From positions 1 through 28,775 of IMG/VR virus record IMGVR_UViG_3300029787_000238: a DNA stretch of 28,775 nucleotides; one strand, written 5' to 3'. A program made the translations under genes and the position numbers. Numbering within the stretch: the first letter of the stretch is position 1; every line of letters starts with the position of its first letter. Shown here piece by piece: positions 3,219-23,322 of the stretch. The stretch comes from a virus. The notes beneath the pieces were generated by a model. It did not search any database. It saw only the letters and a list, made by a program, of their open reading frames with translations, and was not told where the DNA came from.

Positions 3219-4153
3219 TTATATATGGTGCAGGATTAGCAGGGTTGTTAGCAGGGAATATGTTGAGGAGCTTTTGTCCTATAATTTACGAAGCTCAAAA
3301 CGAACTTCCTAATAACCAAGGAGCTCTGTTAAGATTCAGAACAGATAAGGTTGGTACAGCTTGCGCCATACCTTTTACAAAAGTAAGAGTTAACAAAGCT
3401 ATAAAATACAATGGTGATATTTACACCCAACCGAATTTATTCTTGAGTAATTTGTACTCACAAAAAGTAACAGGATCGATATTGAATAGATCTATCAATA
3501 GTCTTGAGCCTGTAGACCGATACATAGCACCATGGGAACTTATCACCATGATGTCCGAAAACTGTCAGATAAAATATGACATGAAGCTCTCAACAATAAA
3601 CAAAAACGATGTGAATGTTATTCCTACAATATCGACTATACCAATGCCAGCATTGATGAAAGTTGTGGGTTGGTCAGACAGACCAGAGTTTCCCTCGCAA
3701 AAAATATGGACACAAAAAGCTCGCATTGAATCGCCAGAGTGTAAAGTTCATCAAACAATATATTACCCAGACCCATTAGTTCCATATTATAGGATCTCTG
3801 TTGTTGGTGATATTGTTATATCAGAATTTATTAGAGAACCTGAAGCATCTATCGGACCACACATGATGAATGTGTTGATGGAAGACTTCGGCATTAAACC
3901 AAGTAAACTTGTTGACTTAAAATCTTCCGAGCAGTATCTTGGTAAAATAAAACCTATCAACGAAGAATTAAGAAAACAATTTATATTTGAAATGACAAGT
4001 AAATACGGAATATATTCGCTGGGTCGTTTTGCAACATGGCGTCAGATTTTACTTGATGATGTTGCAGATGATATCCAGCATATAGAAAAATTCATTCGGT
4101 CAAGCTCTAACTACAACCGATGGATGCACTCTCAGAAAGGAGAAAATCAATGA
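3215..4153 (+). CDS. FAD/NAD(P)-binding Rossmann oxidoreductase-like protein
   Basis: 312 residues. The N-terminus is a textbook dinucleotide-binding fold: MIIYGAGLAGLLAG gives G5-x-G7-x2-G10, and Glu26 (IIYEAQ) sits where the ribose-binding acid is expected. Near the C-terminus, SLGRFATWRQILLDDV resembles the second FAD contact of the amine-oxidase/UDP-galactopyranose-mutase type (GRY..W......D). The middle is divergent, so the substrate cannot be read. The start has an AGGA ribosome site and overlaps the previous gene by 4 bases; the stop overlaps thyX by 4 bases (ATGA). Because ThyX is itself an FAD enzyme that needs reduced flavin, a functional link is plausible, but this is inference. 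Confidence 0.72.
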   Translation: MIIYGAGLAGLLAGNMLRSFCPIIYEAQNELPNNQGALLRFRTDKVGTACAIPFTKVRVNKAIKYNGDIYTQPNLFLSNLYSQKVTGSILNRSINSLEPVDRYIAPWELITMMSENCQIKYDMKLSTINKNDVNVIPTISTIPMPALMKVVGWSDRPEFPSQKIWTQKARIESPECKVHQTIYYPDPLVPYYRISVVGDIVISEFIREPEASIGPHMMNVLMEDFGIKPSKLVDLKSSEQYLGKIKPINEELRKQFIFEMTSKYGIYSLGRFATWRQILLDDVADDIQHIEKFIRSSSNYNRWMHSQKGENQ

Positions 4154-4797
4154 AAGTAAAATTAGTTAGTTATACAAGTGACGCAGTGAACCTTTTACTG
4201 TTCACAAAAAATACTCGTCTTATGAATGATGACGATGCCTATGATAAAATATCTCAGTGGGATGAAGATAAAAAGAAAGCAGAACTCGATTACATGCTCA
4301 ATACGATTAGATCGTCTTGGGAGTTTATTGATTATGTTTTTGATGTTAGAGATGTGACCAGAGGATTTACACATCAGTTCGTAAGAACTCGTCAAGCTTC
4401 ATATGCTCAACAATCTCAAAGAACAGTAGATATGCAAGGCTTCAGCTATTACACTCCAGAAAAAATATATGTAGACGAAACTGCGAATGTAATTTACGAT
4501 GATGCTATGAAAATGATAAACGATAAATATCAAGAGCTAAGAAACTTAGGTATTGCTGCAGAGGATGCTAGAGGAATATTGCCTACAAACATCCACACCA
4601 ACATCGTAGCAAAGTTCAATTTAAGAACACTAAGTGAGATGGCAAAGTCAAGGCTGTCTCCCAGAGCTCAAGGTGAATATCAAAATGTTTTCAAGCTAAT
4701 GGTTAAGGAAGTTGTAAATGTTCACCCATGGGCTGAACCGTTCTTAACCCCAACCCAGTGGGCTGCACCATCTATGGGCAAACCATTAAATCCATAG
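4150..4797 (+). CDS. thyX: Flavin-dependent thymidylate synthase ThyX
   Basis: Makes dTMP from dUMP with methylene-tetrahydrofolate and FAD/NADPH, supplying thymidine for phage DNA. The ThyX signature is present as RTRQASYAQQS-QR (RxRX7S), preceded by the conserved R..THQFVR segment. The second position, usually His (RHR), is Thr here. A second region, HTNIVAKFNLRTLSEMAKSRLSPRAQGE, matches the conserved NxRxLxxxxxxRxxxxAQxE block that completes the active site. 215 residues is the normal family length. The ATG at 4150 has an AAAGGAGAAA ribosome site; an upstream start at 4120 lies inside the flavoprotein gene. It overlaps that gene by 4 bases. Confidence 0.93.
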   Translation: MKVKLVSYTSDAVNLLLFTKNTRLMNDDDAYDKISQWDEDKKKAELDYMLNTIRSSWEFIDYVFDVRDVTRGFTHQFVRTRQASYAQQSQRTVDMQGFSYYTPEKIYVDETANVIYDDAMKMINDKYQELRNLGIAAEDARGILPTNIHTNIVAKFNLRTLSEMAKSRLSPRAQGEYQNVFKLMVKEVVNVHPWAEPFLTPTQWAAPSMGKPLNP

Positions 4798-5076: not shown

Positions 5077-5562
5077 ATGAATATATTTTACTTGGACTCT
5101 GCTCCAAAAAAAGCAGCAGAGATGCACTGCGATAAGCATTGTGTTAAAATGATACTTGAGACTGCGCAACTGCTATGCACTGCGCACCGAGAGCTAGATG
5201 GCGATGACCATTGCGATAAGCACAATCTTTACAAGTCTGCTTTTAAAGATCACCCTTCAGCTGTATGGGTAAGGCAGTGTGCTGATAATTATTGGTGGGC
5301 ATATTACTTGCTTGTTAATCTTTGCGAGCAATATGAAATTAGATATGGCAAAACACATGAATGCGAAAGGTTGCTAGAGCCTTTATTAACTTTGCCACTG
5401 CATATGCCTATTGATAAAGACTTTACACCACCACCCCAATGCATGCCTGACCAATATAAAGGTGATGACGCTGTAAAAGCTTATAGAGACTATTACTTAG
5501 GAGAGAAGATGAGCTTCGCAGTATGGAAGTGGACGGAGGTGCCATCATGGGTAAACGCATAA
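5077..5562 (+). CDS. Conserved phage protein, Cys/His-rich, unknown function
   Basis: 161 residues. It opens with MNIFYLDSAPKKAAEM followed by H17-C-D-K-H-C and VKMILETAQLLCTAHRELDG. This conserved opening (HCDKHxVKMILExAQxL) is one I recall from many phage genomes, without an experimentally settled function. There are eight Cys and several His, including HCDKH twice (17-21 and 45-49), then paired aromatics (DNYWWAYYL), and a C-terminal pattern Y-x2-YY ... W.W...PSW. The spacing would suit metal binding or a nuclease or glycosylase-like role, but no catalytic motif is certain. It has a GAGAAAGGA ribosome site and its own promoter, and it overlaps the phosphatase gene by 16 bases. Confidence 0.8.
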   Translation: MNIFYLDSAPKKAAEMHCDKHCVKMILETAQLLCTAHRELDGDDHCDKHNLYKSAFKDHPSAVWVRQCADNYWWAYYLLVNLCEQYEIRYGKTHECERLLEPLLTLPLHMPIDKDFTPPPQCMPDQYKGDDAVKAYRDYYLGEKMSFAVWKWTEVPSWVNA

Positions 5563-5981
5563 TCATTGCTGACCTAGACGGAACTTTATCTGACTATGGG
5601 CATCGCATACACCTGTACAAAGATAAAGACTATAAAGCTTTTAACAAAGCAGGCATAGGTGATAAGCCTATAGAAAATATCTGCAACATAATAAGAATGC
5701 TTCAAGACGAAGAAACTGAGATTGTTATAATGACTGCTCGTGATGAGACTTGTCGCAAGGACACCTCTAAGTGGTTAAGGCTTAATGATGTCCCTTATGA
5801 TAGGCTTATTATGAGACCTCTAAAAGATATGTCTTCAGACGCAGATTGTAAAAGGAAGCTCTTCGAAGACAATTTCGATTACAAAGATATATGGTTTGTT
5901 TTAGAAGATAGACAATCTGTTGTTGATATGTGGCGTGGCGAGGGATTAACCTGCCTGCAAGTAGCTCCAGGAGATTTCTAA
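5547..5981 (+). CDS. HAD-family phosphatase, PNKP 3'-phosphatase-like
   Basis: 144 residues from the ATG at 5547, preceded by a strong GGAGG site; the longer frame from 5523 lies inside the previous gene. HAD motif I is DLDGTL (D9, D11), motif II IMTARD (T63), motif III Lys around KRKLF (103-105), and motif IV LEDRQSVVDMWR (E120, D121, D127). The KWLRLNDVPYDRLIMR stretch and the VVDMWR ending resemble the phosphatase domain of T4 polynucleotide kinase. That suggests removal of 3'-phosphates from nucleic-acid ends or from nucleotides. There is no kinase domain. It overlaps the next ORF as TAATG. Confidence 0.85.
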   Translation: MGKRIIIADLDGTLSDYGHRIHLYKDKDYKAFNKAGIGDKPIENICNIIRMLQDEETEIVIMTARDETCRKDTSKWLRLNDVPYDRLIMRPLKDMSSDADCKRKLFEDNFDYKDIWFVLEDRQSVVDMWRGEGLTCLQVAPGDF

Positions 5982-6154: not shown

Positions 6155-6440
6155 AGATGCAGCAAAGATTTTAGAAGAGATGGCAGAAACATTCCGTGAA
6201 CGCAATAAAGTCTATGGCGACAACTACAAAACAGTCGGTGAGGTTATGGTTGCATTGTTCCCTAAAGGAGTTAATTTAAAAACTGTTGACGATTATAATG
6301 TTTGGCATTTATTTGAACTTATGATTGTTAAAATTACAAGGTTTGCTAACAGCGACATTAAACACAAAGACTCAATACATGATGCAGCAGTTTATGCAGC
6401 AATGGTCGAGTCATTAATAAAAGGAGAAAATAATGAGTAA
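6147..6440 (+). CDS. DUF6378-like protein
   Basis: 97 residues from the ATG at 6147. The pattern RERNKVYGDNY..VG..M.ALFP.GV.LKT.DDYN..HLFELMIVKITRFAN, then HKDSIHDAAVYAAMVE, is characteristic of the DUF6378 family of small phage proteins. The helical arrangement with paired acidic residues (SIHDAAVYAAM) recalls all-alpha MazG-like NTP pyrophosphohydrolases, so dNTP handling is a reasonable guess but not shown. It overlaps the previous ORF by 8 bases and the SDR gene by 8 bases. Confidence 0.78.
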   Translation: MNKDAAKILEEMAETFRERNKVYGDNYKTVGEVMVALFPKGVNLKTVDDYNVWHLFELMIVKITRFANSDIKHKDSIHDAAVYAAMVESLIKGENNE

Positions 6441-7107
6441 AATTTTGATTACAGGTTCTGGTAAAGGTCTTGGCTTGGCTTTACACAATGCTCTAAAAGA
6501 GCAAGGTCATTTAATATATGACTATGATATTAACGATAGTGCAGATGTTCGCAATCCTGACTTTTTAGATTCAATACAAGAATTAGACATATTGATAAAT
6601 AATGCTGGTGTTAATATAATTGATTGGTTAGAAAATTTTACAGAGGAACAATGGGACAAAGTTATGGATACCAACGCTAAAGGCATATTTAAAATGACTC
6701 AAGCTTGCTTGCCAATGTTAATAAAAAGTAAAGGAACAATAGTAAATGTTGTTAGCAATGCAGCCCATATGCCTATGACTTGTTCTCTCGCATACAATGC
6801 TTCTAAAGCTGCAGCCCACATAATGACTTTACAGATGGCTCGTGAGCTTACAAAAAAGCATGGCATAACTGTATTCGGCATTGCTCCGAATAAATTATCT
6901 GGTACAGGCATGAGCGATTCAATAGACGAGCAAGTTGTTAAAACTCGTGGCTGGAGTAAAGAGTATGCTCAAGAGTATCAATTGAATGGATTATTAACAG
7001 GCAAAGAAACACCACCTAAATTGTTAGCAGAGTTCGTTGCCTATTTACTTAAAGACAAACAGCATCACGAATATCTTACTGGATGCATTTTACCTTATGG
7101 AGCTTAA
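6433..7107 (+). CDS. Short-chain dehydrogenase/reductase (SDR family)
   Basis: 224-residue NAD(P)-dependent oxidoreductase. The cofactor loop is TGSGKGLG (7-14), the structural motif is NNAG (56-59), and the active-site set is Asn81, Ser108, Tyr121 and Lys125 (YNASK). The spacing of 13 residues from Ser to Tyr is right for SDRs. The stretch after the second strand is short (DINDSADVRNPDFL), making the protein smaller than the usual 250. The acidic residue after the second strand favours NAD over NADP. The substrate is unknown. It is followed within 2 bases by the VOC-like gene, so the two may act in one small-molecule pathway. The start has an AAAGGAG ribosome site. Confidence 0.9.
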   Translation: MSKILITGSGKGLGLALHNALKEQGHLIYDYDINDSADVRNPDFLDSIQELDILINNAGVNIIDWLENFTEEQWDKVMDTNAKGIFKMTQACLPMLIKSKGTIVNVVSNAAHMPMTCSLAYNASKAAAHIMTLQMARELTKKHGITVFGIAPNKLSGTGMSDSIDEQVVKTRGWSKEYAQEYQLNGLLTGKETPPKLLAEFVAYLLKDKQHHEYLTGCILPYGA

Positions 7108-8111: not shown

Positions 8112-8176
8112 TGGCAATATCTTTAATTGGTTTCGTTGTAGGAACTATAATCATAGCAGTGTTGATGTATAATTAA
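8111..8176 (+). CDS. 21-residue membrane micro-ORF between exonuclease and polymerase
   Basis: ATG at 8111 to TAA at 8174-8176, 21 codons. Its start shares a base with the exonuclease stop (TAATG) and its stop shares a base with the polymerase ATG at 8176 (TAATG). It has an AGAAGGA ribosome site about 8-10 bases upstream. The product is one hydrophobic span (LIGFVVGTIIIAVLMY). The polymerase ATG itself has no visible ribosome site, so this ORF may couple polymerase translation to exonuclease translation. It may also encode a real micro-membrane protein. Confidence 0.6.
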   Translation: MAISLIGFVVGTIIIAVLMYN

Positions 8177-10986
8177 TGTTACAGATAAGAACTCGCACCG
8201 AATATTCATTCCGTAAAGCCTATGGACCAATAAACAATCTTGTTGAGGGTGCAGGTGAGGCTATGGGAATAGTAGATTCAGGAACTTGGGGACATGTACC
8301 ATTTAACAATGCTTGTAAAAAAGCAGGGATAAAACCTATATTCGGAGTTGAGATTGCTATCGTTGAAGATGCAACCGATAGATCTAAACAGCCAGCAAAC
8401 ATGATGGCTTTTATTGCTAAGAATAATTCTGGTTTATCTGAGATATATGAGCTCGTTACAAAAAGCACCAGTAAAGAAAATTTTTATTATTTCCCTAGGA
8501 TGAGCTATGAGGATCTTTTTAGTATATCTGAAAATGTAATTGTATTAACAGGAACTAATCCAATTCTTGGTTTAATACCTTTAACTAAAAAGAAGCATTT
8601 TTATTTCGAGATAAATCCTATGACGAGTAAAAACAGCTTTCTTTGGGCAAAGAAAAAAGGCTTTCATTTTATAGCAACCTCTGACAATTATTATCCTAAA
8701 GTAACAGATAGAAAAGCCTATGAAGTATTAGTAGGAATGAACAGAACAGAACGCACTAAGCCAATGCACATTCTAAATGAGTGGGAATGGAAAGATGCTG
8801 TTCCTTGGGCACCAGAAGAAGCAATAGAAATGACATATAGAGTAGCAAGAGATTGTAATGTTGACTTACCAGTTGCTCAGATGATATCTTTTACACCAGA
8901 TAAAACTTTAGAACAGATGTGTATAGATGCAGCACCCTCTAGAGGAATAGACCTAACAGACAAAGTTTACAAAGATCGTTTAACCAGAGAAATAGAAATG
9001 ATCGCAAGTAAAAAATTCGAAGATTATTTTTATGTTATTGCTGATATGATTAATTACGCAAAACAACATATGATGGTTGGTCCAGCTCGTGGGTCGAGTG
9101 CTGGATCTTTAGTTTGTTATTTAACAGGAATTACAGATGTTGATCCTATAAAGTTCGATCTATTGTTCGAAAGGTTCATAGATATCACTCGTGCTGACCT
9201 GCCTGATATAGATATAGATTTCCAGGATGATCGCAGAGAGATGGTTTTCCAGTATTTACGAGATAAATATGGTGCGGAAAAAGTTGCTCATTTAGGAACT
9301 GTTAGTCGATATAAAGCTAAAAGCACAATAACAGAAGTTGCTAAAGAACTAGGCATTCCAGCTTGGGAAGTAAACGACTTAAAAGGTGCGATCATTGAAC
9401 GCAGTGGTGGAGATGCTCGTGCTGCAATGTGTATTATGGATACATTTAACGATCTAGACATCGGTAAAGAAGTTCTTAAAAAATATCCACAGATGAAAAT
9501 AGCTGAGAAGATGGAAAATCATGCTAGACATTCTGGTGTTCATGCTGCAGGAATAATTGTAACAGAAGATCCAGTAAGTAATTATTGCTCAGTTAGCTCT
9601 CAAAGTGGTGCAGCCCAGATAGATAAATACGATGCAGAAAGTTTAAATCTTTTAAAAATAGATGCTTTAGGTTTAAGGACTTTGTCTGTTCTGAATGATG
9701 TATTAGAACAAGTTGGTTGGGAAAAAGAAAAAATCATAAACTTCCCTTTAGAAGATAAAGAAGCTTTTGATGTTCTCAATAAAGAAAAACACGCAGGAAT
9801 ATTCCAGTTTGAAGGTTATGCATTGCAATCATTAACTCGTCAGATGAAAATAAGTAACTTCGAAGACATTGCTTCAATTACTGCTCTGGCTCGTCCTGGA
9901 CCATTAACGTCTGGTGGCACAACAAAGTATATAAGGAGAAAAATAGGCGAAGAGCCTGTAACATACCTCCACCCATTAGCTGAAGAGATAACAAAAGTTA
10001 CATTCGGTGTTGTCGTTTACCAAGAACAAGTCATGACAATAGCTCGTGATGTTGGTAAATTGAGCTGGGAAGATGTTTCGCAATTACGCAAGGCAATGAG
10101 TAAATCTTTAGGCGAAGAGTTCTTTGATCGGTATTGGCAGAAGTTTAAAGTTGGTGCTGAAGAACAAGGCATACCAGAGGACGAATCAATAAAAATATGG
10201 AAGAACATAAATACAATGGGGTCTTGGGCATTTAATAGATCGCACGCTATTGCTTATGGCTTAGTCAGCTATTGGTGTTGTGTTTTAAAAAGTCGCTTCC
10301 CATTAGAGTTTGCTGCAGCATGCCTCAGGAATGTAAAAGACGAAGATCAAGGTGTAAAACTATTAAGAGAAGTTGTAAAAGAAGGATTGGTTTATAAACC
10401 ATACGACAAATTTAAATCTAGTCTTAACTGGTCTGTTCAAGATGGAGAGTTGATCGGTGGACTTATAGGCATAAAAGGTATCGGTCCAAAGATGGCTGAA
10501 GATATAGTAGAAAGAAGAAGACTAAGCCAACCTCTAACACCGAGGCAAGAAAACCTTTTAGACTCAGGAGAAACGCCATACGACGATATATTCGAGTGCG
10601 AACGTAGGTTCGGTCATATAAAACAAAACCCTGCTGAACATAACATTAAAACACCAATAACAGACATACATAATTTAGAAGCTGACAATCCTGGAGAGTT
10701 TGTTGTATTCGGTAAGCTTGTTGAAAAGAACCTTAGAGATCTAAATGAAGCTGTAAACTTAGCCAAGCGAGGAGGTCGCAGAGCCGAGACCCACAACCTA
10801 TGGCTTAACATGAAGTTCGAGGACGACACTGGTCCAATTCTGGCAGGCATCGATAGATTTAAATATCCCAAGCTCGGCAAGCCGATAGTTGAAGATGGTA
10901 AAATTAATGATTGGTATCTATTAAAAGGTCAAATAAGAAAAGGTTTTAGGAAATTAAATATAGACAAATGGCGTAAACTTACATAA
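8176..10986 (+). CDS. dnaE: DNA polymerase III alpha-type (DnaE, C-family) replicative polymerase
   Basis: 936-residue C-family polymerase. The palm carries LPDIDIDF with D344 and D346, and the third catalytic Asp is D496 in LLKIDALGLRTL. The fingers and thumb have VGPARGSSAGSLVCYLTGI, HARHSGVHAAGIIVTEDP, and GTVSRYKAKSTI. A helix-hairpin-helix follows (GIKGIGPKMAEDIVERR). The last 120 or so residues look like an OB fold. The N-terminal PHP domain is recognisable but degenerate: the usual HSDYS reads RTEYS and the TDH motif reads VDSG, so metal ligands are lost. It is shorter than E. coli alpha (1160). A possible clamp-binding QENLL lies at 791-795. No clamp or loader is encoded here, so the host's may be used. 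Confidence 0.95.
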   Translation: MLQIRTRTEYSFRKAYGPINNLVEGAGEAMGIVDSGTWGHVPFNNACKKAGIKPIFGVEIAIVEDATDRSKQPANMMAFIAKNNSGLSEIYELVTKSTSKENFYYFPRMSYEDLFSISENVIVLTGTNPILGLIPLTKKKHFYFEINPMTSKNSFLWAKKKGFHFIATSDNYYPKVTDRKAYEVLVGMNRTERTKPMHILNEWEWKDAVPWAPEEAIEMTYRVARDCNVDLPVAQMISFTPDKTLEQMCIDAAPSRGIDLTDKVYKDRLTREIEMIASKKFEDYFYVIADMINYAKQHMMVGPARGSSAGSLVCYLTGITDVDPIKFDLLFERFIDITRADLPDIDIDFQDDRREMVFQYLRDKYGAEKVAHLGTVSRYKAKSTITEVAKELGIPAWEVNDLKGAIIERSGGDARAAMCIMDTFNDLDIGKEVLKKYPQMKIAEKMENHARHSGVHAAGIIVTEDPVSNYCSVSSQSGAAQIDKYDAESLNLLKIDALGLRTLSVLNDVLEQVGWEKEKIINFPLEDKEAFDVLNKEKHAGIFQFEGYALQSLTRQMKISNFEDIASITALARPGPLTSGGTTKYIRRKIGEEPVTYLHPLAEEITKVTFGVVVYQEQVMTIARDVGKLSWEDVSQLRKAMSKSLGEEFFDRYWQKFKVGAEEQGIPEDESIKIWKNINTMGSWAFNRSHAIAYGLVSYWCCVLKSRFPLEFAAACLRNVKDEDQGVKLLREVVKEGLVYKPYDKFKSSLNWSVQDGELIGGLIGIKGIGPKMAEDIVERRRLSQPLTPRQENLLDSGETPYDDIFECERRFGHIKQNPAEHNIKTPITDIHNLEADNPGEFVVFGKLVEKNLRDLNEAVNLAKRGGRRAETHNLWLNMKFEDDTGPILAGIDRFKYPKLGKPIVEDGKINDWYLLKGQIRKGFRKLNIDKWRKLT

Positions 10987-11008
10987 GTAATTGTTTTTAT
11001 TGTGAAAG
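10983..11008 (+). promoter_or_regulatory. Conserved upstream box, copy 2
   Basis: ATAAGTAATTGTTTTTA, then TTGTGAAAG. It overlaps the polymerase stop codon (TAA at 10984-10986) and starts 33 bases before the -35 hexamer at 11016, the same spacing as copy 1. Confidence 0.6.
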
Positions 11009-11015
11009 AAAACTA

Positions 11016-11044
11016 TTTACTTCTTTGGCTAAATAAGATACAAT
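11016..11044 (+). promoter_or_regulatory. Sigma70-like promoter before 11076
   Basis: TTTACT at 11016-11021, a 17-base spacer, and TACAAT at 11039-11044, followed by ATTGATTGAGAAAGGAA before the ATG at 11076. It would drive the peptidase-like and SleB-like pair. Because transcription should begin near 11051, the in-frame TTG at 11052 cannot be the gene start. Confidence 0.7.
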
Positions 11045-11075
11045 CTCTATATTGATTGAGAAAGGAAATAAAATC

Positions 11076-11567
11076 ATGACAAAACATAACCCACTTCAAA
11101 GAAAGATTACTGACTGGACTGGCAAGCAAAGAATAACATGGTGTGGACCATTTTCAGTTGCTACAGTTGCAGGCACTGAATATGAACCAGCATACCAAAC
11201 TCTAAAAATTATCCGTGGTAAGCGTCATTGTAAAGGTGTTAGCAATAAGAACATTGCAACAGCTTGTAAAAAATTAGGCATAAAAGGTAAGTGGACAACA
11301 CTCGATAAAAAACGCAAGTTGAGTAAGTTCGTGCCTGAAAAACTAGAGCAAGGAAAAGTCTACATTATTCAAATTACTCAACATGTTCTTGTTATGGATA
11401 CACGTGACTGGACTACAATCGACAATCAAGTTCCTGAGTGGAGAGCAATGGATGCTTCGCATCACTGGAGCAAAAAACTTGTAAAAGCTTTTTACGAAGT
11501 TGAGAATCCTAAGTTCGATAGTCAGTGCGACGATCAATTAACATTCGACTTTGAGTTAGTGGCATGA
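11076..11567 (+). CDS. Predicted cysteine-peptidase-like protein (C39/papain-like fold)
   Basis: 163 residues from the ATG at 11076, with a GAGAAAGGA ribosome site. A Cys at 23 sits at the start of a helix in TWCGPFSVATVAG, the usual setting of a nucleophile in papain-like and C39-like folds (xCGPxxxA). His103 lies in QHVLVMD, and Asp116/Asn117 follow in TIDNQ, giving the Cys-His-Asp/Asn order. The KGVSNKNIATACKKLG stretch resembles the helix between them. The remainder is Lys-rich. Family knowledge permits a peptidase, amidase or transglutaminase-like activity; a catalytically dead binding protein is also possible. It overlaps the SleB-like gene by 4 bases (ATGA), so the two are translated together. 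Confidence 0.6.
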   Translation: MTKHNPLQRKITDWTGKQRITWCGPFSVATVAGTEYEPAYQTLKIIRGKRHCKGVSNKNIATACKKLGIKGKWTTLDKKRKLSKFVPEKLEQGKVYIIQITQHVLVMDTRDWTTIDNQVPEWRAMDASHHWSKKLVKAFYEVENPKFDSQCDDQLTFDFELVA

Positions 11568-12052
11568 TAGAAGCAGCACTTATGTGTCTAGCCTTGAATA
11601 TTTATTTTGAGGCTAGGTCTGAGCCAATACAAGGTCAGATAGCAATAGCCGAAGTCACTCTTAACAGAGTGGCTTCTGAACATTATCCGAATGATGTTTG
11701 CGGAGTTGTATTGCAAGAAAATAGTGATGGTTGCCAATTTAGTTGGTGGTGCGATGGTAAGTCTGATAAGCCTAAAGAGAACAACTCTCTAAGAACATCT
11801 AAAGCTCTCGCAAAGTTAATGTTACAGGAAGGAGACTATATAACTGTTGTCGGTAAAGATGCAACTCATTATCACACAGAAACAATAAAACCGTATTGGG
11901 CAAAAGAATTTAAAAAAATAAAACAGGTCGGCAAGCATATATTCTATACGATGGACAAAGATAAATTATTGCGTCCTTTACCCAGACCTGACAACTTCGA
12001 ACAGATAATACAGAACCATAAAGACAATATGGTCGAAAAACAAAACTACTAA
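11564..12052 (+). CDS. SleB-like cell wall hydrolase (Hydrolase_2 family)
   Basis: 162 residues. The pattern MCLALNIYFEARSEPIQGQIAIAEVTLNRV, with catalytic Glu17 in YFEAR, then YPNDVCGVVLQ, CQFSWWCDG, a THYHT strand and P.WA...K....GKHIFY, is diagnostic of the SleB/CwlJ-type hydrolase core. These enzymes cleave peptidoglycan glycan strands. No signal peptide is visible, so a holin or virion route would be needed to reach the wall. Unusually, it sits in the replication strand under its own promoter, separate from the lysis block on the other strand, which has its own endolysin. It could be a tail- or entry-associated lysin or have a regulatory role early in infection. Confidence 0.88.
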   Translation: MIEAALMCLALNIYFEARSEPIQGQIAIAEVTLNRVASEHYPNDVCGVVLQENSDGCQFSWWCDGKSDKPKENNSLRTSKALAKLMLQEGDYITVVGKDATHYHTETIKPYWAKEFKKIKQVGKHIFYTMDKDKLLRPLPRPDNFEQIIQNHKDNMVEKQNY

Positions 12053-12058
12053 AAAGAT

Positions 12059-12084
12059 ATAAGTGATTGTTTTTAAAGAGAACA
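12059..12084 (+). promoter_or_regulatory. Conserved upstream box, copy 3
   Basis: ATAAGTGATTGTTTTTA, then AAGAGAACA. It starts 7 bases after the SleB-like gene stop and 32 bases before the -35 hexamer at 12091, nearly the same spacing as the other copies. Confidence 0.6.
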
Positions 12085-12090
12085 AAGTCC

Positions 12091-12119
12091 TTTATCTTTC
12101 TGTAAAAATAAGATAGAAT
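12091..12119 (+). promoter_or_regulatory. Sigma70-like promoter before 12148
   Basis: TTTATC at 12091-12096, a 17-base spacer, and TAGAAT at 12114-12119, followed by CTGAGAAAGGAA before the ATG at 12148. It would drive the zinc-finger protein, the SNF2-like helicase and the nuclease as one unit. Confidence 0.65.
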
Positions 12120-12147
12120 ACTTGTATAAACTGAGAAAGGAACTAAA

Positions 12148-12831
12148 ATGGGAATTTTTATACATAACACAGCATATACAGGTTTTCGCAAACCTTGGAC
12201 TAGAGAGCAGATTATTGCTCGTGGCATTCAGAAGAAAAAATTTGCAGCTCAAAGAAAGGCAAGAGCAATGGCTCCTCAAAATAAAGTAAAATTCGAAGAA
12301 GCCAATCCAGGACTTATAGATGCTCTTAGAGAAGTAGTGTCTTGGAATTCTTTTGCAGCTTCTTTAGTAGAGCAGTTTGATGATCGTGGATCTTTATCCG
12401 AGAAGCAAACAGGTGCTGCAGTTGCTATGCTTATGAAAGTAAAAGCTAACAAAGCTGAACGTGCCGAAGCTCAGAATGTCGATCTTAGCAATGTAGTTGC
12501 TATGTTCAATAAAGCTCATGAGGCGATCAAGACACCTAAGTTCCGTTATGAGGATCTTGTTATCTCTCGAGCACCAGACCATGGTGTAAATGCAGGTGCT
12601 TTATATGTTAAGTTGAATGGCGAATATGCTGGTAAAGTAAAAGAGGGCAAGTGGTTCGGCTCTCAAGATATCTTGCCGAAGCTACAGCAGATTGCTGAAA
12701 ATCCTCTCGAGTCAGCTGTTGCTTATGGTCGTAAGACTGGTAACTGTGCTGTTTGTAACAGAGACCTAACAAGGCATGACAGCATCGAGCGAGGCATCGG
12801 ACCAATATGCGCAGAAAGGTTCGGACTTTGA
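12148..12831 (+). CDS. DUF6011-like zinc-binding protein
   Basis: 227 residues. The C-terminus has a zinc-ribbon-like motif: NCAVCNRDLTRHDSIERGIG followed by PICAERFG. The C-x2-C and distal Cys, with a His between, match the DUF6011 signature (T..C..C.R.L......ARGIGP.C). The middle has LVEQFDDRGSLSEKQ, a pattern seen with this family in phage and bacterial proteins. The N-terminus is basic and Lys/Arg-rich. The role is probably nucleic-acid or protein binding in replication or repair, inferred only from context. It leads the operon with the SNF2-like helicase and VRR-NUC-like nuclease. It has a GAGAAAGGA ribosome site and its own promoter. Confidence 0.78.
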   Translation: MGIFIHNTAYTGFRKPWTREQIIARGIQKKKFAAQRKARAMAPQNKVKFEEANPGLIDALREVVSWNSFAASLVEQFDDRGSLSEKQTGAAVAMLMKVKANKAERAEAQNVDLSNVVAMFNKAHEAIKTPKFRYEDLVISRAPDHGVNAGALYVKLNGEYAGKVKEGKWFGSQDILPKLQQIAENPLESAVAYGRKTGNCAVCNRDLTRHDSIERGIGPICAERFGL

Positions 12832-14525
12832 AAATAACTAAAGCAGACTTCGGTAAATATTGCGTCATCAAGTGTAAGCTTGATGGCGACACATTTGAAA
12901 AATTATCTAGCCTTCCTGGATATAAAAAGTGGGTTGGCAGAGATTTACTTTTTGATCCGACTGGTGCGAACATTGAACGGTTGTATAAGTTCTTTCCTAA
13001 TGCTGAGTGGGATGAGTCTGCGATGCCTGAGTTAGATAAATACATCAGGAACTTAAAAGACATGGAAGAGAACCTAAGAATGAAAAAGGCTGATCTTCCT
13101 AGTAATGATGATTATGATTTTAAGACTAAGCCTTTCGACCATCAACGCAAAGCATTCTATATGAGTCGAGACAAAAAAGCTTTTGCTTTATTGATGGAGC
13201 AAGGAACAGGCAAAACTAAAGTTATTATAGACAATGCTGCATATCTTTACGGTAAAGGTGAAATTACTGCACTTGTTGTTATTGCTCCTAATGGTGTACA
13301 TCGTAACTGGATAAGAGAAGTTAATACTCATATGCCAGATTGGTGTCCTAGGAAGTCTTTCTATTATACTTCAAATATGACTAAATCTAGAGTTACTGAG
13401 TTTGAAGAAATTTATATTTCCGATCAAGTTCTAAAAATATTTACATTTAATGTTGAAGCTTTTACTAGTCCGAAAGCAATCTACTATATGCAAAAAATAT
13501 TACTAGCCAATAAGGTTATGTTAGTTGTTGACGAGAGTTCTAGAATTAAACGTCCAGGAGCAAAAAGAACTAAGATCATAACTAAGTTTTCTAAGTTAGC
13601 TGACTATAAAAGGATAATGACAGGCACGCCAGTAACTAAAGGTGCTGAAGATGTTTACTCTCAATTTAAATTTCTAGATGCTCAAATACTGGGTTATGAT
13701 AGTTTTTATTCTTTTAAAGCTCGATATTGTGTTATGGGTGGCTTCGAAAATAAACAAGTTATATCTTACCAAAATGTCGACGAGCTAACTCGCAATATAG
13801 AGGGTCATTCTTTTAGAGTTCTTAAAAAAGAGTGTTTAGATCTGCCTTCTAAAATATATCAACGTCATTATGTAGAAATGACTGCCGAACAAAAAAAGCT
13901 ATATCAGAACATGAAGAAGACTTTCGTCGCAGAATTAGATGGCCAGACTATCGATGCACCCGAAGCTATAACAAGGTTGCTAAGGCTTCAACAGATATTG
14001 TGTGGTTGGTTTCCTAGTGATGAGGGAATACAACCTATAAACGATAAAAATCCTCGTATAGAAGCTCTCAAAGAGATACTTAACGACATTGACTCTAAAG
14101 TAATCATATGGGCACGTTTTAAAGCTGATTTAAGAGCCATAGAGAGGGCATTAGGAGAATTAGCAGTTAGTTATCACGGAGACGTTACAACAGACGCTAG
14201 AGAGCTTGCAGTTGACCGTTTTCAAAACGATCCTAAGATACAATATTTTATCGGTCAACCTCAGTCTGGTGGTATAGGCTTAACACTAACTGCAGCAGAC
14301 TATGCCATTTATTATTCTAATTCTTTCGACCTAGAGCAACGCATGCAATCGGAAGACAGATGCCACCGAATAGGAACAAAAAATAATGTTACTTATATAG
14401 ATATCGAAACTCGCAAGTCAGTCGATAGTAAAATTATAAAAGCCTTACGAGACAAAAAGAACATCGCTGATGTTATAACAAAAGACCCCATATCAATATT
14501 TATGTCGGAGGACGAGGATGAGTGA
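12828..14525 (+). CDS. SNF2-like superfamily 2 helicase/translocase
   Basis: 565 residues from TTG at 12828, which has an AGAAAGG site 8 bases upstream and forms a TTGA stop-start overlap with the previous gene. An ATG at 12807 would add 7 residues. SF2 motifs are complete: Walker A EQGTGKTKV (126-130), Ia VVIAPNGVHRNWIREV, II VDESSRIKRP (D235, E236), III MTGTPVTKG, IV VIIWARF, V GQPQSGGIGLTLTAADYAIYYS, VI QRMQSEDRCHRIG. This is the SNF2 pattern (DESS box, QRxxEDRxHRIG). It probably moves along or remodels DNA for recombination or repair. It is followed, overlapping by 8 bases, by a VRR-NUC-like nuclease. Confidence 0.92.
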   Translation: MKITKADFGKYCVIKCKLDGDTFEKLSSLPGYKKWVGRDLLFDPTGANIERLYKFFPNAEWDESAMPELDKYIRNLKDMEENLRMKKADLPSNDDYDFKTKPFDHQRKAFYMSRDKKAFALLMEQGTGKTKVIIDNAAYLYGKGEITALVVIAPNGVHRNWIREVNTHMPDWCPRKSFYYTSNMTKSRVTEFEEIYISDQVLKIFTFNVEAFTSPKAIYYMQKILLANKVMLVVDESSRIKRPGAKRTKIITKFSKLADYKRIMTGTPVTKGAEDVYSQFKFLDAQILGYDSFYSFKARYCVMGGFENKQVISYQNVDELTRNIEGHSFRVLKKECLDLPSKIYQRHYVEMTAEQKKLYQNMKKTFVAELDGQTIDAPEAITRLLRLQQILCGWFPSDEGIQPINDKNPRIEALKEILNDIDSKVIIWARFKADLRAIERALGELAVSYHGDVTTDARELAVDRFQNDPKIQYFIGQPQSGGIGLTLTAADYAIYYSNSFDLEQRMQSEDRCHRIGTKNNVTYIDIETRKSVDSKIIKALRDKKNIADVITKDPISIFMSEDEDE

Positions 14526-18040: not shown

Positions 18041-19609
18041 TTATTGACTCCTGCTCGAGATTTCAGATGCTATCATGTCTAACATTTGCTCTGTATATAA
18101 ATTATTAGCATTAGGATTAGCTAACATCTCTCTTAATGCTTGAGTTGTTTTTGCTGCAATCATATCTTTAAAGAATAAAGTTTGACCAAGCTCTGTTCTA
18201 GTTAATTTTTCATTTGCATATCCTTGAGGATTTAAAATTGGATACTCCTGACCTTCACTTGTGTATGTTAAATATTTTACACCATCAGGATAGATAACAC
18301 TAAACGCATCACCTGAAGCATTAATCATACCTCTTGTTGCTTCTTCTCTTAGTGCTTGTTTTTGTTTTATAGTTTCAGGACTGTCACCAACTTTCGGGAA
18401 GTATTGTAAAAGTGCATCAGCATATTCTGAAGCAGCAATCGCAGCACCAGACTCATTTCTTAATTGAGCAGCAACCCAGTTTTGCGCAGCAACGTGAAAC
18501 TGTTGAGCCTCTGCAGTTACACCAATATTACCAAGTCCTAAAGTTTGCATTGTTCTTATTTGAGCAACATCTTGCAAAGTTAAAACATAACCTGAAGCAA
18601 GCATATTTCTTAATATTCCTTCATTAAATAACATTCTGCTTCCGAATGTTGCTGAGGTGCTTTGGTTCTGGTCAAATTTTTGCGAGCGTTCTTCTATTAT
18701 TTTGTTAAGATCAAGACCTTCTGGTATTGGCAAATTCGTGGTTGACGAAAGATCTATTCCTGGTTTTTTCCTAGTAACTTCCTTGCCATTTACAATCTCT
18801 GTATACTCACCACCAACAACGAGCTTTTGGTAGTTTGCAGAATATTCGTTTTTCTCAGCTTCAGTTACACTATCTGCGAGGCTTGGGTCTGCAAGGCGAG
18901 TTCCGATATCATTAACCGAAGAGAAAAGTCTTTCATATTGCGACCCTTGAGGAGTTTTAGCAGGAGCACCAGTAACTAAACTTTGAGACTTTGCAAATTG
19001 CTCAGGTGTTAATAAAACAGTTCCGTCTACACTTCTTTGTAAATTCAAACCTAAAGTTTCATTTAACTCAGCAAGTTTTTCTTCCGAAACACTATATGGT
19101 GCAGGTTTTTTAGCTCCAGCAGTAGATGTTGATGGTGCTTCTAATAGTGCTGATGGGTCTGCATTTATTATTTTTGCTGCATTTGCATTTGTTAGAGTAA
19201 CAACATCATTTTTAGAACCAATTCCAGGAATGTCTTTTTGTAATGTATAAGAATTAAGAGTTGTTGTTCCAGCACCAGTCGGCTTTAGTGCTTTCATTAG
19301 ATTTATAGCAGTTGCTGGAACTTCAGCTTCTCTTTTTCTATTTTGTTCTTTTATATTCATCATGTATTCGGCTGGAGAGCTTGCTGCACCTGCAGCTGAA
19401 CCGAATAGTGTGGCTCCTGGTTGAGATGCTAACTCACCCATTCTACTAAAATATAAAAATGCTGCCATTGCTGGATCAACTTCTCTCGGCTTGCCTGATA
19501 TAGCTTGAGCGAGCTTTACATATTTATCGTCAACTCCGAAGTCTTTTAGACTACCATAGCCTGATAAACCTTCACCGAATGGGTCTGTTCCTGATACTCC
19601 GTTTGCCAT
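18041..19609 (-). CDS. Probable virion protein, unknown
   Basis: 522 residues, starting MANGVSGTDPFGEGLSGYG, rich in Gly, Ser, Ala, Gln and Thr with no clear catalytic motif. A segment near 60-80 (SQPGATLFGSAAGAASSPAEYM) is small-residue rich. The middle is polar and probably partly disordered; the C-terminal third is helical with several QALREE-like stretches. Its size and place between two other large Ala-rich proteins in the late strand suggest a structural or internal virion protein. The start shares a base pair with the stop of the previous gene (TAATG). Confidence 0.68.
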   Translation of the reverse strand: MANGVSGTDPFGEGLSGYGSLKDFGVDDKYVKLAQAISGKPREVDPAMAAFLYFSRMGELASQPGATLFGSAAGAASSPAEYMMNIKEQNRKREAEVPATAINLMKALKPTGAGTTTLNSYTLQKDIPGIGSKNDVVTLTNANAAKIINADPSALLEAPSTSTAGAKKPAPYSVSEEKLAELNETLGLNLQRSVDGTVLLTPEQFAKSQSLVTGAPAKTPQGSQYERLFSSVNDIGTRLADPSLADSVTEAEKNEYSANYQKLVVGGEYTEIVNGKEVTRKKPGIDLSSTTNLPIPEGLDLNKIIEERSQKFDQNQSTSATFGSRMLFNEGILRNMLASGYVLTLQDVAQIRTMQTLGLGNIGVTAEAQQFHVAAQNWVAAQLRNESGAAIAASEYADALLQYFPKVGDSPETIKQKQALREEATRGMINASGDAFSVIYPDGVKYLTYTSEGQEYPILNPQGYANEKLTRTELGQTLFFKDMIAAKTTQALREMLANPNANNLYTEQMLDMIASEISSRSQ

Positions 19610-20844
19610 TATCTTTGTCCCATGTAATAAGCACTGCCTAGTGTTCCTAAAGCTCCTAGTGTTTGGCCATAGACGCTTGGACCTTGCTGTTGTTGAGTTT
19701 GTGTATTATATCCATATTGTTGCGTATTGTATGGCACGCCTTGTAAAGCTCCGAGTGCGAAGTTAATATCTTCATATGGTTTTCTACTTTGATCTAAATA
19801 ATCAGCATAAGCTAAATCTAATGCTTGTTGATCTAATAGTCTTTTTGCTTCGCCAGTAGATATTAATCCTGCTGCAGCTTGTTGTTGTAAGCCTTGAGTA
19901 AGGGTCGCTAGATTTTGATATTGTTGTGCTGCTTGCAACCTGCCTGATTCTTCAGTTTCGTAAGCACCTCTTGCTGCAGCGTCTGCTGCGATTCTACCAG
20001 CTCTATCTGCATCGAACCTACCTGCAGCAAAACCTAAACCTTCAGCCAGACCTCTGGCTCTTAAATCAGCTTGGCTTTGTATTCCTTCCGAACCGAGCAT
20101 AGCCTCTTGTATCCCTAACCGAGAACCACCGAACGCACCACCTCTTGCTGCTGCAGCTCGTGCTGCATTTTGTTGAGCAAGAGTTTGCTCTTGAATGTCT
20201 TTTATGGCTGGATCCATCGCTGCGGAATAAATATCTAAAAACTCTTGAGCTTGAGTTCCTTTACCTATAGCAAAATCTTCACCCATCATATCTCCATAGA
20301 GATCTTGATAAGTTCTAGGAACTTGTTTGCCAGTGTCTGGATCTAGCCTTGTTCCTAGATATCCTTGGCCAATTTGATCCATAAATGTTTGAGAAGATTG
20401 CGTATCGGCAATGCCGTCACCGTCTGTATCGAAGCCTGTTAAATATCCTTGGTACTGGTTTGCACCTTCAGTTAAAATCCGTCCAGCTTCCTGCTCTTCT
20501 AAAGAAAGTTTACTTTTAGGAAAACCAAGACCACTTGCGAGACCTTGAGTTATGTCTGATGCTTTACCTGTATCTCCAGCAGCAGTTGCTGCAGTTGCAT
20601 CAGCTTCGGTTATTTGTCCGTCACCATCATAGTCGTAAGCTGTATTGACGTATTGCGCCATCCTCTCGCCTTGATATCCAGCGTCTGGAATATAATTTCC
20701 TTCTTCATCGAACTGAGGTTGAACTAAAGTTGCAGCTTGACCGAATATCGCTTTACCAGCTTGCGAGACCCATTCTGGGAGTTGCGTGCCTGATAAGGTT
20801 GTGCTGGCTCCTGATAAAGTTACTGGTTGATTGTCAAAACACAT
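19609..20844 (-). CDS. Ala/Gln-rich probable virion protein with calcium-type loops
   Basis: 411 residues. Residues 71-82 read as an EF-hand/dockerin loop (D71, D73, D75, G76, I78, E80, D82), and a second DxDxDG loop follows at D139-D147. The rest is rich in Ala, Gln and Gly, with a long helical region (about 200-330), and a short Gln-rich C-terminus with tandem QQ/QYG-type segments (YNTQQYGYNTQTQQQQG). The GGAG ribosome site precedes the ATG at 20844. The context suggests an internal virion or ejection component; calcium binding is a sequence inference. Confidence 0.66.
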   Translation of the reverse strand: MCFDNQPVTLSGASTTLSGTQLPEWVSQAGKAIFGQAATLVQPQFDEEGNYIPDAGYQGERMAQYVNTAYDYDGDGQITEADATAATAAGDTGKASDITQGLASGLGFPKSKLSLEEQEAGRILTEGANQYQGYLTGFDTDGDGIADTQSSQTFMDQIGQGYLGTRLDPDTGKQVPRTYQDLYGDMMGEDFAIGKGTQAQEFLDIYSAAMDPAIKDIQEQTLAQQNAARAAAARGGAFGGSRLGIQEAMLGSEGIQSQADLRARGLAEGLGFAAGRFDADRAGRIAADAAARGAYETEESGRLQAAQQYQNLATLTQGLQQQAAAGLISTGEAKRLLDQQALDLAYADYLDQSRKPYEDINFALGALQGVPYNTQQYGYNTQTQQQQGPSVYGQTLGALGTLGSAYYMGQR

Positions 20845-20845
20845 A

Positions 20846-21283
20846 TTATATCTCCACGTATAACGAACCAGCCTTAGTTAAACCGAGACGCTCGAAGAAT
20901 TTATCTTTTCTTTCTATGTCTCCTGAAAAAACATGACCAAGTTTAATTTTCAATTTAGCTGAGTTGCCTGAATAAATAAAGTTTTTTACTAATTTAATCG
21001 CTACAGTTGATTTTCTGTTTTCTGGACGAACGTAAAACCACAAATCTCTAAGAGACTTTTCGTCCGACCACCAATCAGTATTTGCTATGCCTGCAATAGA
21101 ACCAACAATTTTATTTTTAATTTCTGCAACGAGGACAATGCCTTCTTCTAAAGCCAATTTTATAGTGTTGTATAATTTCTCTGGCTTAACTGGAGCCAGT
21201 TTTATTTTAGTTTCTGAATGCATATTTAATAACATTTCATAAATTGGTTTAATATCTTGCATTGTTGCCTCTCTTATTTGCAT
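20846..21283 (-). CDS. GNAT-family N-acetyltransferase
   Basis: 145 residues. The GNAT pattern is visible: IREATMQDIKPIYEML at the start, a central strand VLVAEIKNKIVGSIAG, the motif A strand and pyrophosphate loop DLWFYVRPENRKSTVAIKLVKNF, and a closing FFERLGLTKAGSLYVEI. The R-x-x-G-x-G/A loop is degenerate (RPENRKST), so acetyl-CoA binding may be weakened. Such proteins recur within the structural block of many marine phages, and their substrate is unknown. It overlaps the 111-residue gene (stop-start TAATG) and precedes the 411-residue gene by one base. Confidence 0.78.
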   Translation of the reverse strand: MQIREATMQDIKPIYEMLLNMHSETKIKLAPVKPEKLYNTIKLALEEGIVLVAEIKNKIVGSIAGIANTDWWSDEKSLRDLWFYVRPENRKSTVAIKLVKNFIYSGNSAKLKIKLGHVFSGDIERKDKFFERLGLTKAGSLYVEI

Positions 21284-21618
21284 TACATTCCGCTTAAAGC
21301 TCCCATCTGAGGTTCTCTAGGTGCTCGTTGCTGACCACCAACCTGAGATATAATTTGTTGTAGCTCTGGCAACAACTTCATTAATACACCTGCAACGTCT
21401 GGTGTAATAGCTGTATCTAACATTCTAAGCTCCTCTGGAGACATATTAGACAATCTTGCGAGCAATACTGCACCAATCTCTTCAGAAGGTTGCATGAGCC
21501 TTGTAACAGCTTCCTGAGGCATTTGCGCTGCAGGGTTGCGTTGCATATTTGCACCTTCCATTGCTGGCATCATTGGTGGTCTTTCACCCATTGCATCCAT
21601 ATTCATTTCTTCAGCCAT
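21283..21618 (-). CDS. Met/Pro-rich small protein of the virion block
   Basis: 111 residues with an AAGGAG ribosome site. The first 40 residues are rich in Met, Pro, Ala and Asn (NMDAMGERPPMMPAME) and probably disordered. The rest is helical (AVTRLMQPSEEIGAVLLARL, VAGVLMKLLPELQQIISQ) and ends in a Gln/Arg/Pro-rich tail. This is typical of small virion or scaffold-type proteins. No domain recognised. Confidence 0.66.
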   Translation of the reverse strand: MAEEMNMDAMGERPPMMPAMEGANMQRNPAAQMPQEAVTRLMQPSEEIGAVLLARLSNMSPEELRMLDTAITPDVAGVLMKLLPELQQIISQVGGQQRAPREPQMGALSGM

Positions 21619-21619
21619 G

Positions 21620-22825
21620 TTATATCTCCTTTTGTTTATAAAGCACTGACCAGTCTGTTTCTTTACAAAATAAACCTAATAACCAACATATTGGTTCAAA
21701 GATCTTCCTGTAAACTTTACCTAAATAATCAGGCTTTTTTGATTCACCATATATATAGGAAATTTCATTTGCACGATGCAAGACAATATGTTTCCAGAAC
21801 TTAACAAATCTTCCTTTGCGCATTTGCTTAACCATCCATAAAGCCCATAAATGATATCCATTAACATGAGCTGGAGTTAAATAATCTCGAGTAAATTTAT
21901 AGTCATTAACTAATTGCTTTTTAGTTATTAGACCTTGATTGTGTAATTCATTGCAAATTACTCTACCACCAACTATGCTCCCTAAAGCACCACCAATAAA
22001 TCCACCTATTGGTCCACCGAAAGCTGTTCCGATAACTTTACCAATAGCACCAGCACCAGCAGACTTTGCAGCTTTTACAGGATCTCTGCCTAAAGCAAGT
22101 TGCACAGCAAAATTCCCTACAGCTCCCCCAGCAGCACCTTTAATGTTTTGTAATCCTGCTCCTGATTCACCGAAAGGATTTAAAAGGTCTTTTGCTGTAG
22201 CACCTTCCATTACATTTATACCAGTCTGACCTCCGAGAGCAGCAACATCAACACCAGCTTCAGATGCTGCTGCTGTGTCAATTATACCATCTTTCATTCC
22301 TGCTGAAGTTAATGCTTTAAACTCTGGCGTGAATCCTGCTTTTGCTGCTTTAGATGCACTTGTTAAATCAGAGAAAAGAGTTTGGCTTGGTGTAGCGTCC
22401 ATAACACTCGTAACAAACGGCAAGCCACCTTTAAACCCAGCACCTTGCGCAAAGCTCGTGCCGACGCCTTCTGCAACCTGACCTAATATTGGTCCGACTT
22501 CGTTTGCTATAATTTCTCCAGGAGTCATTAAGCCTTCTATTTCACCATTCGCTTCTACAAAAGCTTCATAATCTTGCAAAAGTTTATTTTGCTCTTCGTC
22601 TGTTGGGTCATATTTTATTTGATTAGTTTGAACTTTAGTTACCCATTGTAAAGATGGCATTATCGCTGATCCATAATAGTCTTTTAAAGAAAATGGTCCG
22701 AAGTCAAAATCTTTTGTAGGGTCTACAGATTCTTGCCTGTACAAATTATAAGTAAAAGTACTATCATCCTTTTTTTCTTCCGCAGGTGTATCTACATTTG
22801 CTAATGCTCCAACTTCATATACCAT
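21620..22825 (-). CDS. Glycine-zipper virion protein with conserved C-terminal module
   Basis: 401 residues from the ATG at 22825, preceded by GGAGG and lying 1 base after the previous stop; a start at 22855 lies inside that gene. The N-terminal half is acidic and mixed. At about residues 260-300 lies a glycine zipper (GKVIGTAFGGPIGGFIGGAL, continuing GSIVGG), a motif of pore-forming or membrane-inserting helices. The C-terminal 110 residues (CNELHNQGLITKKQL ... HVNGYHLWALWMVKQMR ... EPICWLLGLFC) match a module I recall from several phage virion proteins. A role in DNA ejection or membrane penetration is plausible. Confidence 0.7.
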   Translation of the reverse strand: MVYEVGALANVDTPAEEKKDDSTFTYNLYRQESVDPTKDFDFGPFSLKDYYGSAIMPSLQWVTKVQTNQIKYDPTDEEQNKLLQDYEAFVEANGEIEGLMTPGEIIANEVGPILGQVAEGVGTSFAQGAGFKGGLPFVTSVMDATPSQTLFSDLTSASKAAKAGFTPEFKALTSAGMKDGIIDTAAASEAGVDVAALGGQTGINVMEGATAKDLLNPFGESGAGLQNIKGAAGGAVGNFAVQLALGRDPVKAAKSAGAGAIGKVIGTAFGGPIGGFIGGALGSIVGGRVICNELHNQGLITKKQLVNDYKFTRDYLTPAHVNGYHLWALWMVKQMRKGRFVKFWKHIVLHRANEISYIYGESKKPDYLGKVYRKIFEPICWLLGLFCKETDWSVLYKQKEI

Positions 22826-22826
22826 A

Positions 22827-23150
22827 TCAACTAACCTCCAATAAACTAGCAACAATGTGTAAACGGTTTGCTGTTGCTGCTGTTGCTTTTAAAATTTCGC
22901 CTTCTTCTAAAACTAATGGTGCTGTTAACAACTCGACTGTTGTATTCGCTCCAACAGCTTTAACTTTAAATAAACTAAAAACTGCTGCAGATGCACTTGT
23001 TAGTGTTAATGTTAGTGTATCGGCATTACCACTATCTTCAGAAGCCAAAATAGATTTAAAAACTGCAGTTGTTGCACTCGGACAAGTATACAAAGTTGTT
23101 GCATTCGTCGTTGTTAAATCTAATTTTGCATTCTTAAAGTTATTAGCCAA
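22827..23150 (-). CDS. Small beta-rich virion protein
   Basis: 107 residues, starting with TTG at 23150; no better ATG is available in frame. The sequence alternates Thr, Ala, Ser and hydrophobics (DLTTTNATTLYTCPS, SGNADTLTLTLTSAS, NTTVELLTAPLVLEEGEILK), the pattern of the small marine-phage virion proteins in which an NTT.ELLTxPLVLExGExLKAxAATANRLHxxxS motif recurs. It probably decorates the head or neck. It lies 1 base before the glycine-zipper gene and overlaps the 59-residue gene by 8 bases. Confidence 0.72.
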   Translation of the reverse strand: MANNFKNAKLDLTTTNATTLYTCPSATTAVFKSILASEDSGNADTLTLTLTSASAAVFSLFKVKAVGANTTVELLTAPLVLEEGEILKATAATANRLHIVASLLEVS

Positions 23151-23322
23151 TAAACCAACTCACTGCTTGGGAAGTATCTTCCGATGTTTTATTTGAAGAA
23201 GTCGTAGCGAAAAATGTTGCCTGTTTTTCTAACTCAATAGTGTTGTTGAGCCTTGCCATATAACTTTGATCATATTCTTTAGGAGGACTAGGCAACCTTA
23301 AAACTGCTGTTGGAGCACTCAT
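23143..23322 (-). CDS. Small virion-block protein, 59 residues
   Basis: ATG at 23322, stop TAA at 23145-23143. The start overlaps the stop of the 708-residue gene as ATGA. The opening APTAVLRLPSPPKEYDQSYM, with a Leu-Pro-Ser-Pro-Pro box and YMARL.NTIELE, resembles small proteins I recall between a large tail protein and the small beta-rich virion protein of marine phages. The C-terminus is Thr/Ser-rich and ends in a short aromatic tail. No function assigned. Confidence 0.7.
   Translation of the reverse strand: MSAPTAVLRLPSPPKEYDQSYMARLNNTIELEKQATFFATTSSNKTSEDTSQAVSWFIG

Follow-up and report, generated by a model that had tools for sequence, protein, structure and literature searches.

The closest described counterparts of the protein considered here are the C39 domains of ComA, PCAT1 and LahT (PF03412), a family typified by cleavage after a double-glycine leader and by fusion to an ABC transporter through which the substrate is exported. 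For LahT, a passage of PMC6363468 places the catalytic triad at Cys27 (helix 1), His101 (strand 4), and Asp117 (strand 5). The papain-like fold is put to other uses as well: BtrH_N (PF14399) and phytochelatin synthase (C83) transfer acyl or peptidyl groups, and a passage of PMC10318531 treats BtrH_N, C39, and C70 as closely related. Among phages, the N5 domain listed in Table 1 of PMC3314691 is C39-like by published HHpred and sits in a modular mycobacteriophage endolysin, while the idea that phage peptidases act on host proteins has already been published for jumbo phages, as a passage of PMC7824862 has it. Small papain-like proteins of no known function occur in many phages. The protein P0001, encoded in a 28,775-nucleotide stretch of viral DNA (the window; IMG/VR record IMGVR_UViG_3300029787_000238), has in common with the ComA, PCAT1, and LahT domains its fold, the order and placement of Cys, His, and Asp, and its domain length, but it differs from them in being a standalone protein that is not fused to an ABC transporter, in lacking the conserved glutamine six residues before the cysteine, and in having its own invariant RxKRHxKG and DTRDxTxIDNQ stretches, which are those of its family. 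It likewise differs from the N5 domain in standing alone. Searches of literature titles and abstracts returned no description of the P0001 gene or of a pair formed by P0001 and a wall hydrolase.

P0001 is a predicted papain-like (C39-like) cysteine hydrolase of 163 amino acids, recognized from its open reading frame, its conservation, and its modelled fold, and encoded on the plus strand at 11076..11567, with an ATG start at 11076 and a stop at 11567; a TTG at 11052, 24 nt upstream of the ATG, is an alternative open start. Its ribosome-binding site, GAAAGGAA (11060..11067, plus strand), is kept before most relatives. The protein is a single domain, with neither a wall-binding part nor an obvious signal sequence in its 163 residues. 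Re-reading of the frame gave the same candidate catalytic residues, with the same numbering, as an earlier sequence-only reading of this DNA had named, namely Cys23 (11142-11144), His103 (11382-11384), and Asp116-Asn117 (11421-11426), all on the plus strand.

Relatives were gathered from IMG/VR, where a first scan gave 45 loci and an alignment-based scan gave 108 that were confirmed, the best 80 of these 108 being used; combined, they amount to at least 83 distinct loci with 55 different protein sequences, each locus reaching up to 3 kb to either side. The window protein and 83 environmental relatives make up a set of 84 proteins, which is represented by a 42-row alignment from which near-duplicates and the fragments L032, L037, L038, and L045 were omitted. 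The TWCGP motif around Cys23 is present in 83 of the 84 proteins, as is His103, and the two exceptions are a fragment that begins past the motif and a fragment that ends ahead of the histidine, L038 and L045 being cut fragments. Asp116-Asn117 is found in all 83 proteins that cover it (82 by pattern, plus L071, in which the motif is one residue off elsewhere), and the spacing from His to Asp is 13 in every one of the 81 proteins measured. The alignment has 34 invariant positions, including R47, K49, R50, H51, K53, G54, and D108-T109-R110-D111, and the other cysteines tallied are less constant, Cys52 being replaced by Ala in 23 of the 42 rows and Cys64 being variable in one. Between eight pairs of relatives dN/dS lies between 0.05 and 0.22, which indicates strong purifying selection. 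As a separate observation, the basic stretch at residues 47-54, R-x-K-R-H-x-K-G, lies between helix 2 and helix 3 and does not vary.

An AlphaFold2 model built from the 42-row alignment has a papain-like fold (pLDDT 83.5, pTM 0.79, with residues 151-163 under 50 in pLDDT), in which Cys23 begins helix 1 (residues 23-32), His103 begins the strand 103-108, and Asp116 lies just after the strand 113-115. A model of the L079 protein, which is 53% identical, shows the same fold and similar C39 matches (pLDDT 84.9), and in both models the cysteine lies on helix 1 and the His and Asp on successive strands, as read from the predicted secondary structure. Foldseek against the PDB placed the C39 domains of PCAT1, ComA, and LahT at the top (E 3.7e-4 to 8.2e-4), and in VIA-align the best PCAT1, ComA, and LahT chains reached Z 10.7-11.0 with an rmsd of 3.0-3.2 over 119-122 residues, YopQ tying with the best of them. 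The NlpC/P60 and CHAP families were absent among the fold matches listed, an absence from which we draw the exclusion of neither. Because the three residues are conserved in all covering relatives and the predicted fold gives the canonical C39 order, that order is not a matter of chance, and the papain/C39-like triad proposed from the letters alone is upheld by conservation and by a model whose secondary-structure placement of Cys, His, and Asp follows C39. The product of this strongly conserved gene is very probably a papain-like cysteine enzyme.

The chemistry of such an enzyme is a separate matter, since folds like that of P0001 also carry out acyl transfer, deubiquitination, and pseudomurein cleavage, to judge by entry titles. 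The window protein reached no Pfam cut-off and gave no C39 (PF03412) match; two relatives, L039 and L042, exceed the Peptidase_C39 threshold of 22 bits in Pfam, scoring 24.3 and 24.2. Against BtrH_N, P0001 scored 20.5 bits, below the curated cut-off of 29.7, and 13 of 19 members matched that profile weakly (best 1.5e-4), with those whose scores were shown all below the cut-off. A glutamine six residues before the cysteine has been proposed as the oxyanion residue in other C39 domains. This position holds N in 17, K in 15, I in 8, and R in 2 of the 42 rows, so that the glutamine is absent; the role of the C39 glutamine is itself questioned in a passage of PMC6363468. These features bear on the best rival to the cleavage of a host protein, in which P0001 would use its papain fold as a transferase or amidase does (like BtrH, phytochelatin synthase, or a GATase), with a small molecule, an acyl carrier, or a modified base as its substrate. 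The weak BtrH_N matches, the fold match to phytochelatin synthase (Z 8.6-8.7), and the missing glutamine are all consistent with it, and the invariant basic residues R47-x-K49-R50-H51-x-K53-G54 could bind an acidic ligand, but the best fold scores belong to C39 peptidase domains and C39 is the sole papain-like Pfam family whose cut-off was seen to be passed by any relative, and we regard transferase or amidase chemistry as unlikely.

Within the phage world, the nearest described group is phrog_3754, to which no function is assigned and which matched P0001 over residues 23-142 (E 1.4e-4); 18 of 19 members matched its profile (best 2e-7), as did product 36 of Sphingomonas phage Eidolon and Kharn product 37. 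The 42-row profile, searched against the open reading frames of nine loci, likewise found Eidolon product 36 (2.1e-9), CRP-901 gp28 (3.3e-8), Brevundimonas phage Domovoi (2.4e-7), and product 37 of Sphingomonas phage Kharn (0.0034). The named relatives are remote, with Eidolon at 23.7% over part of the length and Kharn at 14% in a structural match. Fifteen viral models in BFVD matched at E <=0.001, and the only function named among them was that of one thioesterase domain-containing protein. We therefore place the P0001 family among the uncharacterised papain-like proteins of phages that surround phrog_3754, as an unstudied subfamily and no new kind of system. A tblastn search of 50,697 phage records at E 0.01 returned no relative of P0001, none of the 20 stretches matched in genome contigs by alignment-based patterns was confirmed as a relative, sequence searches of the PDB and of NCBIfam gave chance matches only, and PADLOC reported nothing for P0001 or for the neighbouring P0002.

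The sequence-only reading had also given the gene its own boxed promoter. A box, TAAGTAATTGTTTTTA, lies upstream of P0001 at 10984..10999 on the plus strand, with other copies at 2269-2284 and 12060-12075, and is followed at 11016..11044 (plus strand) by a sigma-70-like promoter, TTTACT-17-TACAAT. The two elements form a module of about 90 nt, consisting of the TAAGTNATTGTTTTTA box and TTTACT-17-TACAAT, which is common to the regions before the open reading frames at 2363, 11076, and 12148. The box alone, allowing up to 3 mismatches, gave 7 matches against 2.4 expected, a number reached in none of 100 shuffles, whereas the -35/-10 pattern alone was not above chance (3 sites vs 3.8 in shuffles). 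It is because the module is repeated, the hexamers by themselves being at chance level, that we accept the promoter as the gene's own. The module copies span 2269-2365, 10984-11078, and 12060-12150. The last of them (box and promoter at 12060..12119, plus strand) precedes a DUF6011 gene (12148-12831) and divides the unit of P0001 and P0002 from the next genes, which encode the DUF6011 protein and an SNF2-type helicase. Possibly the three copies are where a phage regulator acts on replication-stage genes.

Directly upstream of P0001 in the window lies the gene for DNA polymerase III alpha (8176..10986, plus strand), and a polymerase III alpha gene is found upstream of the family gene in 75 of the 84 loci; it was not found in 4 loci with at least 1000 bp readable upstream, and 5 loci were unreadable. 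The cluster of L028-L031, L033, and L038, together with L079, carries the gene before terminase-region genes or in the same near-identical setting, terminase large subunit profiles being matched in L030, which the scan of the cluster covered, and in L079. Neither a hydrolase nor DNA polymerase III alpha was seen in these two separate terminase-side lineages. On the tree, two switches into or out of the terminase background are required, the starred branches forcing two. The family gene therefore occurs in two phage backgrounds, with two changes between them. The frequent company of the polymerase would suit an enzyme that processes a phage protein, whether of the replisome, with the neighbouring polymerase as substrate, or of the virion, but the terminase-type setting of those seven loci, the four readable loci in which the polymerase was not found, and the position of the window gene in the replication arm, away from head and tail genes, speak against it. 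Processing of a phage protein is accordingly a doubtful explanation, and we give it little weight.

Downstream, P0001 overlaps by 4 nt (ATGA) the gene for P0002 (11564..12052, plus strand), a SleB-like cell wall hydrolase and a neighbour in part of the family, and this overlap stands as had been claimed. P0002 matches Pfam Hydrolase_2 (PF07486) over profile positions 1-100 of 100 (E 1.3e-24; 87.2 bits vs a cut-off of 27). The sequence-only reading had gone further and proposed a functional pair of peptidase and hydrolase, and this proposal did not survive a survey of the 84 loci, in which the distance was taken as the hydrolase start relative to the stop of the P0001-family gene. The hydrolase overlaps that gene by 4 nt or 1 nt, or abuts it, in 28 loci, and is set apart by 64-2086 bp in another 28 (64-73 bp in 6, 160-329 bp in 6, and about 1.1-2.1 kb in 16). 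It was not found in 20 of the 76 loci with a readable flank (14 over at least 2000 bp and 6 over 900-2000 bp), the flank being too short for a call in the remaining 8. Grouped into 22 clusters at 90% identity, the loci show overlap in 6, a gap in 8 (of which three also contain loci where the hydrolase was not found), no hydrolase in 7, and an unreadable flank in 1. Because these distances vary, and because the family gene can share its stop with the start of an unrelated gene as well (L047, L070, and L041), the overlap seen with the hydrolase in some members seems to reflect no more than ordinary gene packing. Nor did the same pair appear in the sequenced phages with remote homologues, no annotated wall hydrolase adjoining the homologue in Eidolon, Kharn, CRP-901, or Domovoi; beside the Eidolon and Kharn homologues, an annotated gene for polymerase III alpha is missing too. 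Roseobacter phage CRP-1 gp10, which lies beside a SleB relative, is unrelated to P0001 by the 42-row profile. The association of the SleB-like gene with P0001 is a loose one, that of a neighbour and not of an obligate partner, and the survey removes the pairing with a wall hydrolase as the leading idea for P0001.

Two roles that the pairing had suggested lose ground with it. A role as a peptidase on the peptides of the wall's peptidoglycan, alongside a SleB-like hydrolase that attacks the glycan, would accord with the overlap in a third of the loci, with the fold match to the pseudomurein endoisopeptidase PeiR (Z 9.6), and with the C39-like N-terminal domain among mycobacteriophage endolysins (PMC3314691, Table 1), but the hydrolase is often distant or not found, P0001 has neither a wall-binding part nor an obvious signal sequence, and we consider this role improbable; the window also holds a separate endolysin with GH108 and peptidoglycan-binding domains (25442-25951, minus strand). 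The existence of this endolysin means that the SleB-like gene of the replication arm is not the sole lysis enzyme. That P0001 processes or activates the hydrolase is suggested by the same 4-nt or 1-nt overlaps, yet the family gene persists without the hydrolase, the spacing between the two varies, and P0002 has no long propeptide, its Hydrolase_2 match starting from residue 19, and such an activating role is extremely improbable.

The explanation that we favour, at about an even chance, is that P0001 is a standalone, cytoplasmic, C39-like thiol hydrolase that is made with the replication genes and probably cleaves a host protein or peptide; its catalytic activity, its cytoplasmic location (from the lack of an obvious signal sequence), and its host target we infer. 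The gene would be transcribed from its own boxed promoter alongside replication-stage genes, Cys23 at the start of helix 1 would serve as the nucleophile, His103 as the base, and Asp116 (with Asn117) as the third member, and the enzyme would most likely act in takeover or counter-defence, by cutting a host protein at a peptide or isopeptide bond. A host target fits because the gene is made with the replication genes, is tied to no single partner, and moves between phages. More tentatively, and with somewhat less than an even chance of being right, P0001 may be a replication-stage phage cysteine protease whose substrate is a defence or housekeeping protein of the host, that has moved between unrelated marine phage backgrounds with its active site near-unchanged, and whose RxKRHxKG stretch recognises a shared target. 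The subfamily has at least 83 environmental relatives in two backgrounds, an active site that does not vary, and in the window its own promoter module, and so offers a tractable test of whether phages turn cysteine proteases on host proteins.

Some further features of the surrounding genome are worth recording. Judging by sequence likeness, the genome is a mosaic of a structural arm (18041-25445, minus strand) and a replication arm (8176-14525, plus strand). Part of the structural arm resembles gp32-gp39 of Roseobacter phage CRP-901 at 28-65%, a likeness that suggests an alphaproteobacterial host, and the nearest counterparts of the polymerase in named phages are found in Vibrio phage VA-RY-3, Cronobacter phage Ss1, and Xanthomonas phage Carpasina. 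Also noted with the replication arm are a ThyX-type thymidylate synthase (4120-4797), a PNKP-phosphatase-like HAD protein (5523-5981), and a FabG-like dehydrogenase (6433-7107). In several of the SleB-like relatives (L005, L008, L013, L015, L023, and L027), Gln takes the place of the second Glu in the EAR[SG]E motif (EAR[DN]Q), so that activity either does not strictly depend on this residue or is different in those copies.
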